35,443 bases of DNA from Candidatus Gastranaerophilales bacterium (GTDB taxonomy: Bacteria > Cyanobacteriota > Vampirovibrionia > Gastranaerophilales > Gastranaerophilaceae): contig CALUTG010000013.1 in the NCBI GenBank assembly GCA_944323615.1, forward strand, positions 1 through 35,443. The letters run 5' to 3'. Below, piece by piece: positions 2,850 to 35,384 of the stretch (position 1 is the first letter of the stretch; the number at the start of each line of letters is the position of its first letter). The notes under the pieces were generated by a model that was not told the origin of the DNA, ran no database searches, and saw only the letters and a list, made by a program, of their open reading frames with translations. The position numbers were made by a program, and so were the translations under genes.

Positions 2850-3187
2850 AATAATTCCTCATGTGTGTAGAAGGTTAGTGTGTAGGTTGTATGAAAGGTT
2901 GTTATGTGTTTATTTAATGTTTGTCGTTTCGACTTACATATATATAAAGTATAATTCTTATATAAAATTGCGTTACTCTGTATATATTGTTACAAAAATT
3001 TACACTAGTATTTTTCCCCTCCTTTTGCCAAGGTTTATTTCCGGTTCCAAAAGATAAAAGAATAAATCCAAGAATAGTTTTTGCTAATAAATGTAAAGTT
3101 TTGTAAAAAAATACCAAAAAAGTGTTATTAAAACACGAAAATGTGGAATTAAGAAAATTGAGGATATTTTAAGAAGGAACTTATTCT
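2850..3187. other. AT-rich intergenic region upstream of the adhesin unit
   Basis: About 340 bases without a supported gene. The sequence is very AT-rich with short TATA-like runs around 2940-2970. Open frames here start with GTG, lack a ribosome-binding site and encode low-complexity residues, so I reject them. The promoter of the leader ORF and adhesin must lie here, but I cannot place it confidently. An AAGGA at 3174-3178 serves the leader ORF at 3188. Confidence 0.6.
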
Positions 3188-3286
3188 ATGGAATTATGTA
3201 TGAAAGATGGAATAGATATTAAAGGTGTATACGTATGTAATCCTGCAATAGTGTACGATATAAATGATATGGAGGGTTGTTTCTGA
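3188..3286 (+). CDS. 32-residue leader ORF coupled to the adhesin
   Basis: ATG 3188 has a good ribosome-binding site (AAGGA at 3174-3178) and opens a 32-codon frame whose TGA stop overlaps the adhesin ATG as TGATG at 3284-3288. The adhesin's own GGAGGG (3271-3276) lies inside the last codons of this frame, so ribosomes finishing the leader would be placed at the adhesin start. The peptide has three cysteines (positions 4, 17 and 31), is mildly acidic and lacks a signal peptide. Function unknown. Either a regulatory leader whose translation controls adhesin synthesis, or a real micro-protein. The overlap and both ribosome-binding sites are seen; the regulatory role is inference. Confidence 0.55.
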   Translation: MELCMKDGIDIKGVYVCNPAIVYDINDMEGCF

Positions 3287-6200
3287 TGAAAACAACTGTG
3301 TGTGCACTTCTAACAGCCCTTGTAATATCTTCAATAATTCCTTCTTATGCGGCTGAGCCGGTTATGACACTGGATAACCTGAAAACTCAGCATACGCAAT
3401 ACTTGGAGTCTGGACATAGCACATATACTTTGACAGAAGTCTCAGATACTGTTCCTGACGGTGCTATAACGGTTAAAATAGAAGATAAAACCTATTACTA
3501 CACCCCAAAAGAGGGAGATAATGTTACTCTGTTAAAGACCTTAGCTTCAACAGGTCATTCTGCCTTGAAAGAAACGAATGTGTCAGAAGCATTGTATGTT
3601 GTCGGAGATAAGTATTACAGCTATGATACGGAAAAACTTCCAAATTCAGGATATAAACTAACCTCTGTAACAATTGAGAATCCGGAGTCGTTACCTTCTA
3701 ATGTGATAACCTTGTATGAAAAAAACGAGGTAGTGAAATATTATGATCCGGCAACGGGAAAAGAAGTTTCATCTGACCAGCTTCAGCCGGATGTTAATTA
3801 CAAGGAAGTCACGACGATAGAAACAACTCCTAAGTATTATGAGGCAGCGCTGAACAAGATTGAATACGGAAATCCAAACGGAGATAAGAGTGTAAGTGTA
3901 ACTATAGACAAGCTCGGTCAAACAGTTACGTATAAGTATATAGAACCGGAATATGATAAAACTGAAACAAATCACACAAAAGATATAAGTACAACTGATC
4001 CCGGTGGTAGTTCAATCAGTCATAGCCAGCTAACAGGCGGCTCTGTAGTAAACAATCCTCGGGGTGCAACAATCTCAATAGACGGAGTATTGTATAAGGA
4101 TAACTCTGCGACAGGTACGATAACTTCTACCACATCAGGTCCTAAATATGCAGATATATTGGGCGGTGCTATATACAATGCGGGCGAGATAACAAGTATA
4201 GTCGGCGGGTTTATTAACAACAGCATAGAAGTCGAAAGTGTTGTGAGTCCCGATGCCGGTAATTTAGTTATTTATGCTCAAGGCGGCGCAATTTATAATG
4301 AAGGCACTATTGGTGATATTTTAGGTGGTTTTATAGCTAACTATGCTTTAAGCTCTGGTTCATATGCCTATGGAGGCGCGATTGCTAATACAGGTGCAAT
4401 CGGCGATATCACAGGAAATTTTATAGGGAACTATGCTACCGGTTCCGACTCATATGCCCGTGGCGGTGCGATTTATAATGAGGATGGAATAATCGGTGAT
4501 ATCACGGGTGATTTTATAAGTAACTATACATCAGGTTCCAGTTCTAACGCTCACGGTGGCGCGATTTATAATGAGGATGGTACAATCGGCGATATCACTG
4601 GGGATTTTATAGGGAACTATACTTCCGGTGATAATTCTGCCACTGGCGGCGCGATTGATAATGGTGGTACAATCGGGGATATAACCGGGGATTTTATAGG
4701 GAACTACGCTTCCAGTTCTGCACATGCCAATGGCGGAGCGATTTATAATACTGTTGGCGGTACAATCGGGGATATCACTGGGGATTTTATAGGGAACTAC
4801 GCTTCCAGTTCTGCACATGCCAAAGGCGGAGCGATTTATAATGCTTATAGAGTTACAATCGGGGATATCACCGGGGATTTTATAGGAAATTATGTTGATT
4901 CATCCAATTATTGGACTAAAGGCGGCGCGATTTATAATGAGGGTACAATAGGGGATATCACCGGGGATTTTATAGGGAACTACGCTTCCGGTGATAATTC
5001 TGCCAGTGGCGGCGCGATTGATAATGGTGGTACAATCGGGGATATCACAGGAGATTTTATCGGGAATTATGTTATTTCTTCCGGTTCTATTGCTTCTGGT
5101 GGCGCGATTGATAATTATGGTACAATCGGTGATATCACAGGGGACTTTATAGGAAACTATGCAATTTCTTCCGATTCTATTGCTTCTGGTGGTGCGATTG
5201 ATAGTGGTGACATTAGCTCTATCACGGGAGATTTTATAGGTAACTACGCTTCTTCAACTAAATATGAAGCCAAAGGCGGTGCGATTTATAATGGATTGGG
5301 AGATACAATCAGCTCTACCACGGGAGATTTTATCGGGAACTATGCTATTTCTTCCGGTTCTGTTGCTTCTGGCGGCGCGATTTATAATGATGGTACAATC
5401 AGCTCTATCACGGGAGATTTTATAGGGAACTATGCGTCCGGTTCTACTGCTCGTGGCGGTGCGATTTATAATTATGGTACAATCAGCTCTATCACGGAAG
5501 ATTTTATAGGGAACTATGCGTCCGGTTCTACTGCTCGTGGCGGTGCGATTTATAATTATGGTACAATTAGCTCTATCACGGGAGATTTTATCGGGAACTA
5601 TGCTATTTCTTCCGATTCTGTTGCTTCTGGCGGCGCGATTTATAACAGTAGTACAATCGGCGATATCATCGGGGACTTTATAGGGAATTATGCTTCTTCG
5701 GTTGAAGGAGAAGCCTCTGGCGGTGCGATTTATAATTGTTTCTATGATGGCATAATCAGCTCTATCACGGGAGATTTTATAGGAAACTATGCTTCCGGTT
5801 CTATTGCTTCTGGTGGTGCGATTTATAATGCTTATAGAGTTACAATCGGTGATATCTTTGGCGATTTTATAGGGAATTATGCTTCTTCTATTGAAGGTTC
5901 TGCTTCTGGCGGCGCGATTTATAATGATAATAATAATTCTAATTATGGTACAATCGGGGATATCACCGGTGATTTTATAGGGAACTATGCATCCGGTTCT
6001 ACTGCCGCTGGCGGTGCAATTTATAACAGAGGTGAAATTGGTGATATAACAGGAGATTTTATAGGTAACTATGCTTCTTCAACTGATGATACTGCTCGTG
6101 GCGGTGCGATTTTTAATGAGGGTGATATCAGCTCTATCACGGGAGATTTTATAAGAAACTATGCTTCTTCAACTGGTGATACTGCTAGTGGCGGTGCGAT

Positions 6201-8445
6201 TTTTAATGAGGGGGATATCAGCTCTATCACCATGGATTTTACAGGGAACTATGCGTCCGGTTCTACTGCTCGTGGCGGTGCGATTTATAATGAATCGGTA
6301 GGTACAATCAGCTCTATCACGGGCAATTTTATAAATAACTACTCAGAAGGAACTCAAATGGCTTACGGTGGTGCAATTCTCAATGCAGGTACAATAGGCG
6401 GCTATGATGTATCGGCTGATAAAATTATCCAAGTTCAAGGTGCCACATATACTAACTTAGAGACTGGGGAGAGTCTGACCATTTATATGCCGTTAGAAGA
6501 GTCGCAGAAAGAAGCCCTGCAAAACGGATATAAAGCCGTAGTGGTTTCGATGGGCAATATACCTGTTCCTCCTGAACAATGGGCAGTGATAGAAGCTCAA
6601 CTGGGTCCTGCAATTGAGTCTGGTACGATAACAACAGAACTTCCTGTAGATGAAGATCAAATAGCTCAGCTAACGGGCGGACTTGTAAACTCAACCTTTT
6701 TGGGGAACTACGCGAAGTCTACCGAAGGTGAGGCCAAGGGCGGAGCGATATATACAAGGAACTCTTTAACTATTGCGGCTGACAAAGGAAATTCGGTATT
6801 TAGCGGTAACTATGTCGAGGATGTAAATGGCAAACGCTCGGAAGCGATATACGTTGACAATGCTGCAGCTACTCTAACCCTTCAATCCAAGAATGACGGA
6901 ACCATCTTGTTTGATGACCAGATAAACGGTGTAGCAGGTTATGGACTCAGTATTAAAGGCGACAGTACAGGCAGAGTAATCCTGAACAACGATGTAATAA
7001 ATGCGAAGGTAGACCTGAGCGAAGTCACTCTTCAACTGGGAAGAGAGGATGTGCTTAATCAATCCCAATCTTTAACTCTCAACTCGGGAACTCTTTCGCT
7101 CATTAACAACGGAGTCGGCACGATGCACCTGCCGAACTTCAGTATCAACGGCGCAGTGAATATGGCAGTAGACGCTGACCTGGCAAATAAAACAATGGAT
7201 AGAGTAACGTCAGATAACTATCAAATAAGTGATGATGCTCAATTAAACGTATCTCATATTAATCTGATATCAGACGCAAAAGAGGATAAAACAGATATCC
7301 AATTTGCAGACAGTGCATTTTCAAATAATGTTGCCTACACAGGGGAGAACCCAATTGCATATAGCAAGATATATAAATACGATGTAAGCTATAACCCTGA
7401 CGACGGATTCTTTACTTTTATGCGAGGAGGCTCATCAAATCCGTCAGACAATTACAACCCTGTAGTATTAGCGCCCGCGGTAGCGAACCAGGCAGGTGCA
7501 TATTCAACCCAGATGCAGGTGTTTACCTATGCATTCCAACATTCGGACAATTTTATGAACCTGCCTTACTTTGACAGATTAGCAATAACAAAAGAAAACC
7601 AGTATGCATTAATCAACGATTCTACCGTCGGACCTTATTCCCCGATATTTACAAAAATCAATCAGGGCGGATATTGGGTAAAACCATATGTAAGTTTTGA
7701 AAACATACCATTAAAAAATGGCCCGAAGGTAAGTAATATAGCTTACGGCTCCCTCATCGGTTATGACTCAGCTCTGACTCCAATCAGTCATGGGTTTGAA
7801 AGAGTTCTTACCGGATATGTGGGATATAACGGAGCCAGCCAACGTTACAGCGGTGTAGATACTTATCAGAACGGAGGTTTGCTGGGCGGAACGATAACCT
7901 TATATAAGGGCAACTTCTTTAATGCCACAACCCTTTCTGCGGGCGCAAGCGTAGGCGAGAGCAGTAACATGTATGGACATGAGAACTATACGATGTTTAT
8001 GGCAGGCTTGGGTAATAAGTTTGGGTATAACTTTGAGTTCCAGAGAGGACGATATATCTTACAGCCGTCAATGCTGTTGAGCTATACGTTTGTGAATACG
8101 TTTGATTATACGAACGCGTCAGGAACGAGGATGAGCAGTGACCCGTTGCATGCAATCCAACTTTCACCGGGTGTTAAATTTATTATGAATACAAAGAACG
8201 GGTGGCAGCCTTATGCGGCAGTAAATATGGTATGGAATATATTTACAGGTCAGAAGGTAATGGCAGATGATGTAAGGCTGCCGAGTATGAGTATTAAGCC
8301 TTATGTCCAGTATGGTTTGGGTGTACAAAAACTGATTAAAGATAAATTCCTTGCATTTGGACAGACAATGATATCAAATGGCGGACGAAACGGTGTATCA
8401 TTATCATTTGGCTTAAGATGGCTGCTGGGGAAGGAGAGTGAGTAG
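3286..8445 (+). CDS. Giant repeat adhesin with C-terminal autotransporter barrel
   Basis: 1719-residue surface protein. ATG 3286 is chosen for GGAGGG nine bases upstream and for the clean signal peptide (residues 1-24, ending SYA-A). Residues 25-290 form a Tyr-rich, beta-looking N-terminal region. Residues 293-1040 hold about 25 repeats starting GGAIYN and continuing as TIGDITGDFIGNYAS, 27-34 residues each, typical of a right-handed beta-helix passenger. A less regular helix with NNGVGT-type motifs follows to about 1385. The last 300 residues look like an autotransporter beta-barrel (WVKPYVSF, IGYDSA, alternating aromatic strands). The ending FGLRWLLGKESE leaves a few residues after the expected terminal aromatic strand. 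Likely exported by Sec, with the passenger displayed by its own barrel, as a host or biofilm adhesin. The role is inferred from architecture. Confidence 0.9.
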   Translation: MKTTVCALLTALVISSIIPSYAAEPVMTLDNLKTQHTQYLESGHSTYTLTEVSDTVPDGAITVKIEDKTYYYTPKEGDNVTLLKTLASTGHSALKETNVSEALYVVGDKYYSYDTEKLPNSGYKLTSVTIENPESLPSNVITLYEKNEVVKYYDPATGKEVSSDQLQPDVNYKEVTTIETTPKYYEAALNKIEYGNPNGDKSVSVTIDKLGQTVTYKYIEPEYDKTETNHTKDISTTDPGGSSISHSQLTGGSVVNNPRGATISIDGVLYKDNSATGTITSTTSGPKYADILGGAIYNAGEITSIVGGFINNSIEVESVVSPDAGNLVIYAQGGAIYNEGTIGDILGGFIANYALSSGSYAYGGAIANTGAIGDITGNFIGNYATGSDSYARGGAIYNEDGIIGDITGDFISNYTSGSSSNAHGGAIYNEDGTIGDITGDFIGNYTSGDNSATGGAIDNGGTIGDITGDFIGNYASSSAHANGGAIYNTVGGTIGDITGDFIGNYASSSAHAKGGAIYNAYRVTIGDITGDFIGNYVDSSNYWTKGGAIYNEGTIGDITGDFIGNYASGDNSASGGAIDNGGTIGDITGDFIGNYVISSGSIASGGAIDNYGTIGDITGDFIGNYAISSDSIASGGAIDSGDISSITGDFIGNYASSTKYEAKGGAIYNGLGDTISSTTGDFIGNYAISSGSVASGGAIYNDGTISSITGDFIGNYASGSTARGGAIYNYGTISSITEDFIGNYASGSTARGGAIYNYGTISSITGDFIGNYAISSDSVASGGAIYNSSTIGDIIGDFIGNYASSVEGEASGGAIYNCFYDGIISSITGDFIGNYASGSIASGGAIYNAYRVTIGDIFGDFIGNYASSIEGSASGGAIYNDNNNSNYGTIGDITGDFIGNYASGSTAAGGAIYNRGEIGDITGDFIGNYASSTDDTARGGAIFNEGDISSITGDFIRNYASSTGDTASGGAIFNEGDISSITMDFTGNYASGSTARGGAIYNESVGTISSITGNFINNYSEGTQMAYGGAILNAGTIGGYDVSADKIIQVQGATYTNLETGESLTIYMPLEESQKEALQNGYKAVVVSMGNIPVPPEQWAVIEAQLGPAIESGTITTELPVDEDQIAQLTGGLVNSTFLGNYAKSTEGEAKGGAIYTRNSLTIAADKGNSVFSGNYVEDVNGKRSEAIYVDNAAATLTLQSKNDGTILFDDQINGVAGYGLSIKGDSTGRVILNNDVINAKVDLSEVTLQLGREDVLNQSQSLTLNSGTLSLINNGVGTMHLPNFSINGAVNMAVDADLANKTMDRVTSDNYQISDDAQLNVSHINLISDAKEDKTDIQFADSAFSNNVAYTGENPIAYSKIYKYDVSYNPDDGFFTFMRGGSSNPSDNYNPVVLAPAVANQAGAYSTQMQVFTYAFQHSDNFMNLPYFDRLAITKENQYALINDSTVGPYSPIFTKINQGGYWVKPYVSFENIPLKNGPKVSNIAYGSLIGYDSALTPISHGFERVLTGYVGYNGASQRYSGVDTYQNGGLLGGTITLYKGNFFNATTLSAGASVGESSNMYGHENYTMFMAGLGNKFGYNFEFQRGRYILQPSMLLSYTFVNTFDYTNASGTRMSSDPLHAIQLSPGVKFIMNTKNGWQPYAAVNMVWNIFTGQKVMADDVRLPSMSIKPYVQYGLGVQKLIKDKFLAFGQTMISNGGRNGVSLSFGLRWLLGKESE
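4162..6405 (+). repeat. About 25 in-frame GGAIYN repeat units
   Basis: Units of about 81-102 bp encode GGAIYN-x-GTI(GDI/SSI)TGDFIGNYAS-type modules. Two neighbouring units (5401-5484 and 5485-5568) match at 82 of 84 bases, and the units around 4687-4731 and 4780-4824 share a long identical stretch with a 93-bp period. A variant insert encoding AYRV occurs in two non-adjacent units (near 4840 and 5827). These are signs of recent tandem duplication and copying within the array. Confidence 0.95.
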
Positions 8446-35213: not shown

Positions 35214-35257
35214 ATAAGATAAAACATCATTTTACATAAAATGGTAAATAATTTATT

Positions 35258-35274
35258 GGGGCTAATGCCGCCCC
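35258..35274. repeat. Short GC hairpin (first of the right-end cluster)
   Basis: GGGGC (35258-35262), TAATGCC, GCCCC (35270-35274). It follows infB by 45 bp but has no T-tract, so it is not a classic terminator. Confidence 0.5.
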
Positions 35275-35284
35275 GTACCCCGCA

Positions 35285-35329
35285 CCAACATTCTTTCTTT
35301 TTTGAGAATGAAAAAAGAAAGAATGTTGG
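35285..35329. repeat. Perfect 19-bp inverted repeat
   Basis: Stem CCAACATTCTTTCTTTTTT (35285-35303), loop GAGAATG, and its exact complement (35311-35329). The arms are pyrimidine- and purine-rich. No T-tract follows on either strand. It resembles a MITE-like or REP-like element rather than an ordinary terminator. Confidence 0.85.
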
Positions 35330-35354
35330 ATAAGAAAGAAAAACACCTGCTGCT

Positions 35355-35376
35355 GCATTTTTCTACCGAAAAATGC
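35355..35376. repeat. 9-bp hairpin
   Basis: GCATTTTTC (35355-35363), TACC loop, GAAAAATGC (35368-35376). Third member of the right-end hairpin cluster. Confidence 0.7.
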
Positions 35377-35384
35377 CTGTAACA

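Follow-up and report, generated by a model that had tools for sequence, protein, structure and literature searches.

Introduction

Gastranaerophilales, relatives of the Cyanobacteria, live in the gut and are for the most part uncultured. The stretch of DNA analysed here (the window, 35,443 nt, contig C13 of a 1.93 Mb genome of this order) carries a large adhesin gene whose start codon is overlapped by the stop codon of a short upstream frame, and the question raised by this locus is whether the short frame controls translation of the adhesin. The first-pass annotation had described a 32-codon leader with its own Shine–Dalgarno sequence (SD), ending in TGATG and containing the adhesin SD in its last codons, and had proposed that adhesin translation depends on it and could be modulated by cysteine.

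Results

The leader frame and the adhesin gene in the window

The features considered below, in window coordinates, are:

3100–3149, forward strand: promoter-like motif TTTGTAA...GTTATT-N12-TGTGGAAT, with GTTATT at 3124–3129 and TGTGGAAT at 3142–3149, identified by a genome motif count
3174–3178, forward strand: leader SD, AAGGA, 9 nt from the ATG, anti-SD pairing −6.2 kcal/mol
3188–3286, forward strand: leader frame, 32 codons plus stop, peptide MELCMKDGIDIKGVYVCNPAIVYDINDMEGCF
3266–3329, forward strand: predicted mRNA hairpin containing the adhesin SD, −18.6 kcal/mol, in which 3272–3281 pairs with 3312–3321
3271–3276, forward strand: GGAGGG, the adhesin SD, within the final leader codons, anti-SD pairing −9.8 kcal/mol
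3284–3288, forward strand: TGATG stop/start overlap
3286–3351, forward strand: adhesin signal peptide MKTTVCALLTALVISSIIPSYA, assigned by eye and corresponding to the signal peptide of a related adhesin (L099)
3286–8445, forward strand: adhesin, 1719 aa, with GGAIYN repeats and a C-terminal autotransporter barrel, from the reading frame and a barrel model

Every element of the layout originally described is present in the sequence. The leader opens at ATG 3188–3190 and has both its own SD and the upstream promoter-like motif, with a second SD-like sequence, GAGGA, ahead of it at 3160–3164. The A of its TGA stop (3284–3286) is the first base of the adhesin ATG (3286–3288), an overlap of stop and start of the kind that marks translationally coupled gene pairs, and a TGA at 3265 closes the adhesin frame ahead of its start. 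Chance was assessed by fixing both ATGs and shuffling the 95 nt between them with dinucleotides kept: the leader frame reached the adhesin start and stopped within −6 to +20 nt of it in 3.5% of shuffles (P 0.035), while 1.5% of them gave the exact TGATG register (P 0.015). Taken by itself the window is suggestive, the layout being moderately unlikely by chance and convincing only by way of its relatives.

The hairpin at 3266–3329 is more stable than expected (z −3.07), none of 200 shuffles being equally stable, but the contrast is weaker in a synonymous recoding control, where 5% of recodings folded as well (P 0.05). The probability that the adhesin SD is unpaired was 0.11, compared with 0.32–0.78 at 10 of the 11 other starts in the window, and the SD is predicted to be masked by the hairpin.

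The adhesin barrel model (pLDDT 83) matches AIDA-I, EspP and BrkA, with TM scores up to 0.84 by target length, and so has the autotransporter-fold C-terminal beta barrel of a classical (type Va) autotransporter. Pfam found no families in the window adhesin, hence no autotransporter domain match, and only a Chlam_PMP repeat match in the relative L099; searching PDB sequences with the profile of the barrel gave no match. The N-terminus of the adhesin had no relative among 58 genomes of the genus, and no second allele or syntenic orthologue of the window locus was found. The nearest adhesin, in genome G026, shares 83% barrel identity; its leader is fused and its neighbouring genes are different. 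An Rfam scan of the window detected no RNA family, and a search of a phage collection returned no match.

At the far end of the window, positions 35254–35382 form a repeat that is probably an interspersed intergenic element, since it is 89% identical to L168:4041–4171.

A promoter-like motif shared with flagellar genes

The core motif occurs at eight sites in the window's genome, and the reversed control pattern at none. With 3100–3500 as query, a dispersed motif corresponding to 3100–3165 was found in 23 of 58 congeneric genomes, where it stands before flagellins, adhesins and a membrane-like protein of 28 residues, and also before a short frame that has flgK behind it; the identities of the flagellin and FlgK behind it were confirmed by Pfam. 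A FliA-type sigma factor, possibly the cognate one, is encoded in the genome. A mobile repeat or RNA was also considered for 3100–3165 and rejected, as positions before flagellin and flgK genes are better explained by a promoter, and 3100–3149 would accordingly be expected to act as one. The distance from GTTATT to the leader ATG is 64 nt in the window and 63–68 nt in the related loci L099 and L100, and therefore the leader ATG lies where translation is expected to begin.

Two small frames behind motifs of this type were noted. Many genomes of the genus have a conserved single-helix protein of 27–29 residues (e.g., MEIINVVLLGCVFYLAFIGIPSLCEKKH) directly behind the flagellar-type motif (L041, at G000:C1:21714, L028, L030, L031, L025, L034 and L024). 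At L043 (G000:C54), a 36-residue frame (MLETIIDAFAPQG...), conserved in other genomes, lies between the motif and flgK; it may encode a short protein resembling FlgM or be a further leader frame.

G runs in the leaders of related adhesins

In related adhesins, the leader consists of an ATG with an SD (GAGG or AGGA), 13–25 codons, and a run of 7–17 G, followed by the signal peptide. The pattern TGTGGAA-N90-119-G9 detects 29 distinct loci, spread over 16 of 65 genomes, against two for the reversed control. Many of the related adhesins have a frame open up to or through the G run but no good start of their own there, and several lack any usable start of their own ahead of the signal peptide unless translation enters from the leader. 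The leader is fused to the adhesin in one frame in L099, L100 and L105, and a stop overlapping the ATG of the adhesin signal peptide is seen also in L361, L367 and L246. The expectation that the short frame would recur upstream of homologous adhesin genes thus held in part: the motif and the position of the leader ATG are conserved between the window and its relatives, but the leaders of the latter are mostly fused or poly-G gated and do not end in TGATG, and their peptides differ, so that a conserved leader peptide was rejected.

Registers were counted at the 30 loci whose leader is preceded by an SD, leaving out the flagellin loci L362, L365, L372 and L307, where a leader SD is not clear. 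Ten are ON, seven by fusion and three by coupling, and twenty are not, where random phase predicts one third ON; at two of the three coupled loci the start lies 7 nt after the stop. Close pairs differ in run length: L171 and L103, both in G053, are 97% identical upstream but carry G11 (off) and G10 (on), while L186/L193 (95% identical) carry G13/G9 and L187/L189 (92% identical) G9/G11, single lengths being soft because metagenome assemblies may miscount G runs, a problem of which the leader anatomy is independent. G runs in differing registers among relatives are a feature of phase-variable contingency loci, and the differences in length are read as probable slipped-strand phase variation.

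Five loci with both motif and G run, four of them in G053, have no clear coupled target. The idea that every G run is a switch was rejected, many being intergenic and running into TAAATA-type repeats. A second class of intergenic runs of about 10 G, often followed by TAAATA-type units and unlinked to the motif, was noted at L138–L162.

The window allele has no long homopolymer at the frame junction, only the GGAGGG at 3271–3276. The same site is occupied by ATGGAGGGGATAAAA in L100 and by G10–15 in L101–L106, and there is a parallel within the window's genome, where the leader on contig C24 has GGGAGGG and that on C80 has G12. On this comparison GGAGGG is read as a probable remnant of a G run. 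Because the window copy appears to have lost its long run, both the promoter motif and the poly-G switch were missed by the first-pass annotation.

Probable coupling of flagellin leaders to their targets

The flagellin N terminus must stay free, and fusion to a leader would spoil it. At all 11 flagellin loci with a poly-G leader, exactly one of the three frames leaving the run is open to the flagellin ATG; this frame extends 18–355 codons from the run and its stop begins 1–17 nt after the first base of the ATG (11/11). The longest, at L308 (G053:C5:125900–128400, minus strand), passes for 355 codons through repeat debris and ends in ATGA. When the DNA from the run to the ATG was shuffled, P values ranged from 0.45 (54 nt) to <0.0005 (1066 nt), with a product of 1.6e-14 over nine flagellin loci, which overstates their independence as they are partly related.

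The window's genome also contains flagellin leaders lacking a long run. On C24, where GGGAGGG takes its place, a 158-codon frame ends on the flagellin ATG (P 0.0006), and on C68 a tract-less leader has a 66-codon coupled frame (P 0.033). The C80 leader, with G12, stops short of the flagellin in its present register. By contrast, two orphan copies of the motif and leader, on C51 (G000:C51:11693–11721, L379) and C29 (G000:C29:766–794, L378), with no such target behind them, have broken frames; the C51 copy is followed by a glmU-like gene.

Among other observations at these loci, the interspersed repeats between the G run and the flagellin of L308 leave no frame but the coupled one open, for a distance exceeding 1 kb. 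Some targets of poly-G leaders are very long flagellin-headed frames of about 560–1380 aa (G026:C1:20021–20422, L307; G029:C6; G053:C5; and L371), at least one of which, L371, has GLUG and M26-like inserts.

Discussion

A model for the leader family and the window locus

These comparisons suggest a leader family in Gastranaerophilales that sits behind one promoter type common to flagellar genes and may gate surface proteins. In most relatives, a change in length of the G run inside the leader would determine which frame is read. When the register is right, an adhesin leader would join the signal peptide in frame, while a flagellin leader would continue as far as a stop that overlaps the flagellin ATG, at which the ribosome could restart; in the wrong register translation would end early and the gene would be off. 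It is likely, in our assessment, that this constitutes a relay-type switch, in which a hypervariable G run within a leader without a lasting product decides whether ribosomes travel through up to 355 codons of otherwise meaningless sequence to an overlapping flagellin start or the leader is fused into an autotransporter, with the whole set of switches behind a single flagellar-type promoter and the window locus locked in the coupled register.

For the window itself, the reading that we favour, with slightly less assurance, is that its leader belongs to this phase-variable family, has lost its run and is fixed in the coupled register, delivering ribosomes to the adhesin ATG. Shrinkage of the run to GGAGGG would have left the leader permanently in the stop-over-start arrangement, and translation of the leader would open the hairpin hiding the adhesin SD. 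Coupling of leader and adhesin is supported by the position of the leader start where it is expected behind the motif, by the stop-over-start layout that recurs at the 11 poly-G flagellin loci, two tract-less flagellin loci of the window's genome and three related adhesins, and by the predicted SD-masking hairpin; adhesin translation may then depend on the leader, as proposed at the outset.

The main rival is a decayed fusion, in which the leader is a decayed or off-register N-terminal extension, its frame offset from that of the adhesin at the former G run, that simply ends early, and the adhesin is either initiated independently from its own SD or poorly made. The fused leaders of L099, L100 and L105 show what such an extension could have derived from, and the adhesin SD is strong enough (−9.8 kcal/mol) that the leader might be dispensable. 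Against this, neither the exact overlap of stop and start nor a masking hairpin would be expected of decay, the tract-less leaders of C24 and C68 still have coupled frames that are long and open, and the 1719-codon adhesin frame is intact. Decay is held to be rather unlikely.

That the short frame is there by chance, neither translated nor relevant, is very improbable. The P of 0.035 from the window alone and the variable leader peptide would allow it, but an SD is found at the very position where genes behind the motif start, and this architecture is found repeatedly in the genus. Cysteine-sensing attenuation, in which stalling at Cys codons would tune adhesin translation, can practically be dismissed: the three Cys in 32 codons (C4, C17 and C31) are indeed present, but over 30 leaders Cys makes up just 16 of 588 residues, is missing from many and is neither clustered nor conserved in position, unlike the conserved run of a regulatory codon in an amino-acid attenuation leader, and no known regulatory RNA family was found, leaving modulation by cysteine unsupported.

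If the favoured model is true, Gastranaerophilales generate surface diversity by switching flagellins as well as autotransporters through leader frames, the flagellins by coupling and not by fusion, and individual cells would differ in the combination of flagellins and adhesins that results from a set of switches under a single flagellar-type promoter. Such genes would also be easily mis-annotated, as an OFF register puts the true start in another frame and the upstream frames would be control elements.

Comparison with known systems

In the Opa proteins of Neisseria and the adhesins of Helicobacter, whether a surface adhesin is expressed in frame depends on slippage close to the signal peptide; those systems use other repeat units within the signal-peptide coding region and have neither a separate leader nor a coupled flagellin. 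Searches found no paper on phase variation in Gastranaerophilales, PMC7018530 mentioning both subjects separately, and no description of the coupled flagellin form of a G-run switch, in a literature that was largely open-access. Overlap of stop and start as a sign of termination-reinitiation is established to the extent that coupled gene pairs are treated as a class (PMC3711429), but the upstream frame of the window differs from these in encoding no conserved protein and in having relatives that carry a putatively phase-variable run.

The capC/capD genes of Campylobacter resemble the present adhesins in being autotransporters with a poly-G tract, which lies upstream of or in the coding sequence (PMC7168839). 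The capC tract, however, is placed in the putative promoter region and not in a leader ORF, and its length does not track gene integrity (PMC7168839). In the sortase-dependent pili of Bifidobacterium breve UCC2003, a run of about 10–12 G near the beginning of the first ORF determines by its length whether the pilus ORF is fused to a short ORF ahead of it, and replication slippage has been measured (PMC9187656). Ahead of the Campylobacter autotransporters, this fusion switch is the closest described case: like the Gastranaerophilales leaders, it is a G-run-gated leader fusion acting on a surface protein of a gut commensal, but it works by fusion only, involves neither flagellins nor a shared flagellar-type promoter, and lacks stop-over-start coupling to a second, separate gene (PMC9187656), and it differs further from the window copy, which is without a long run.
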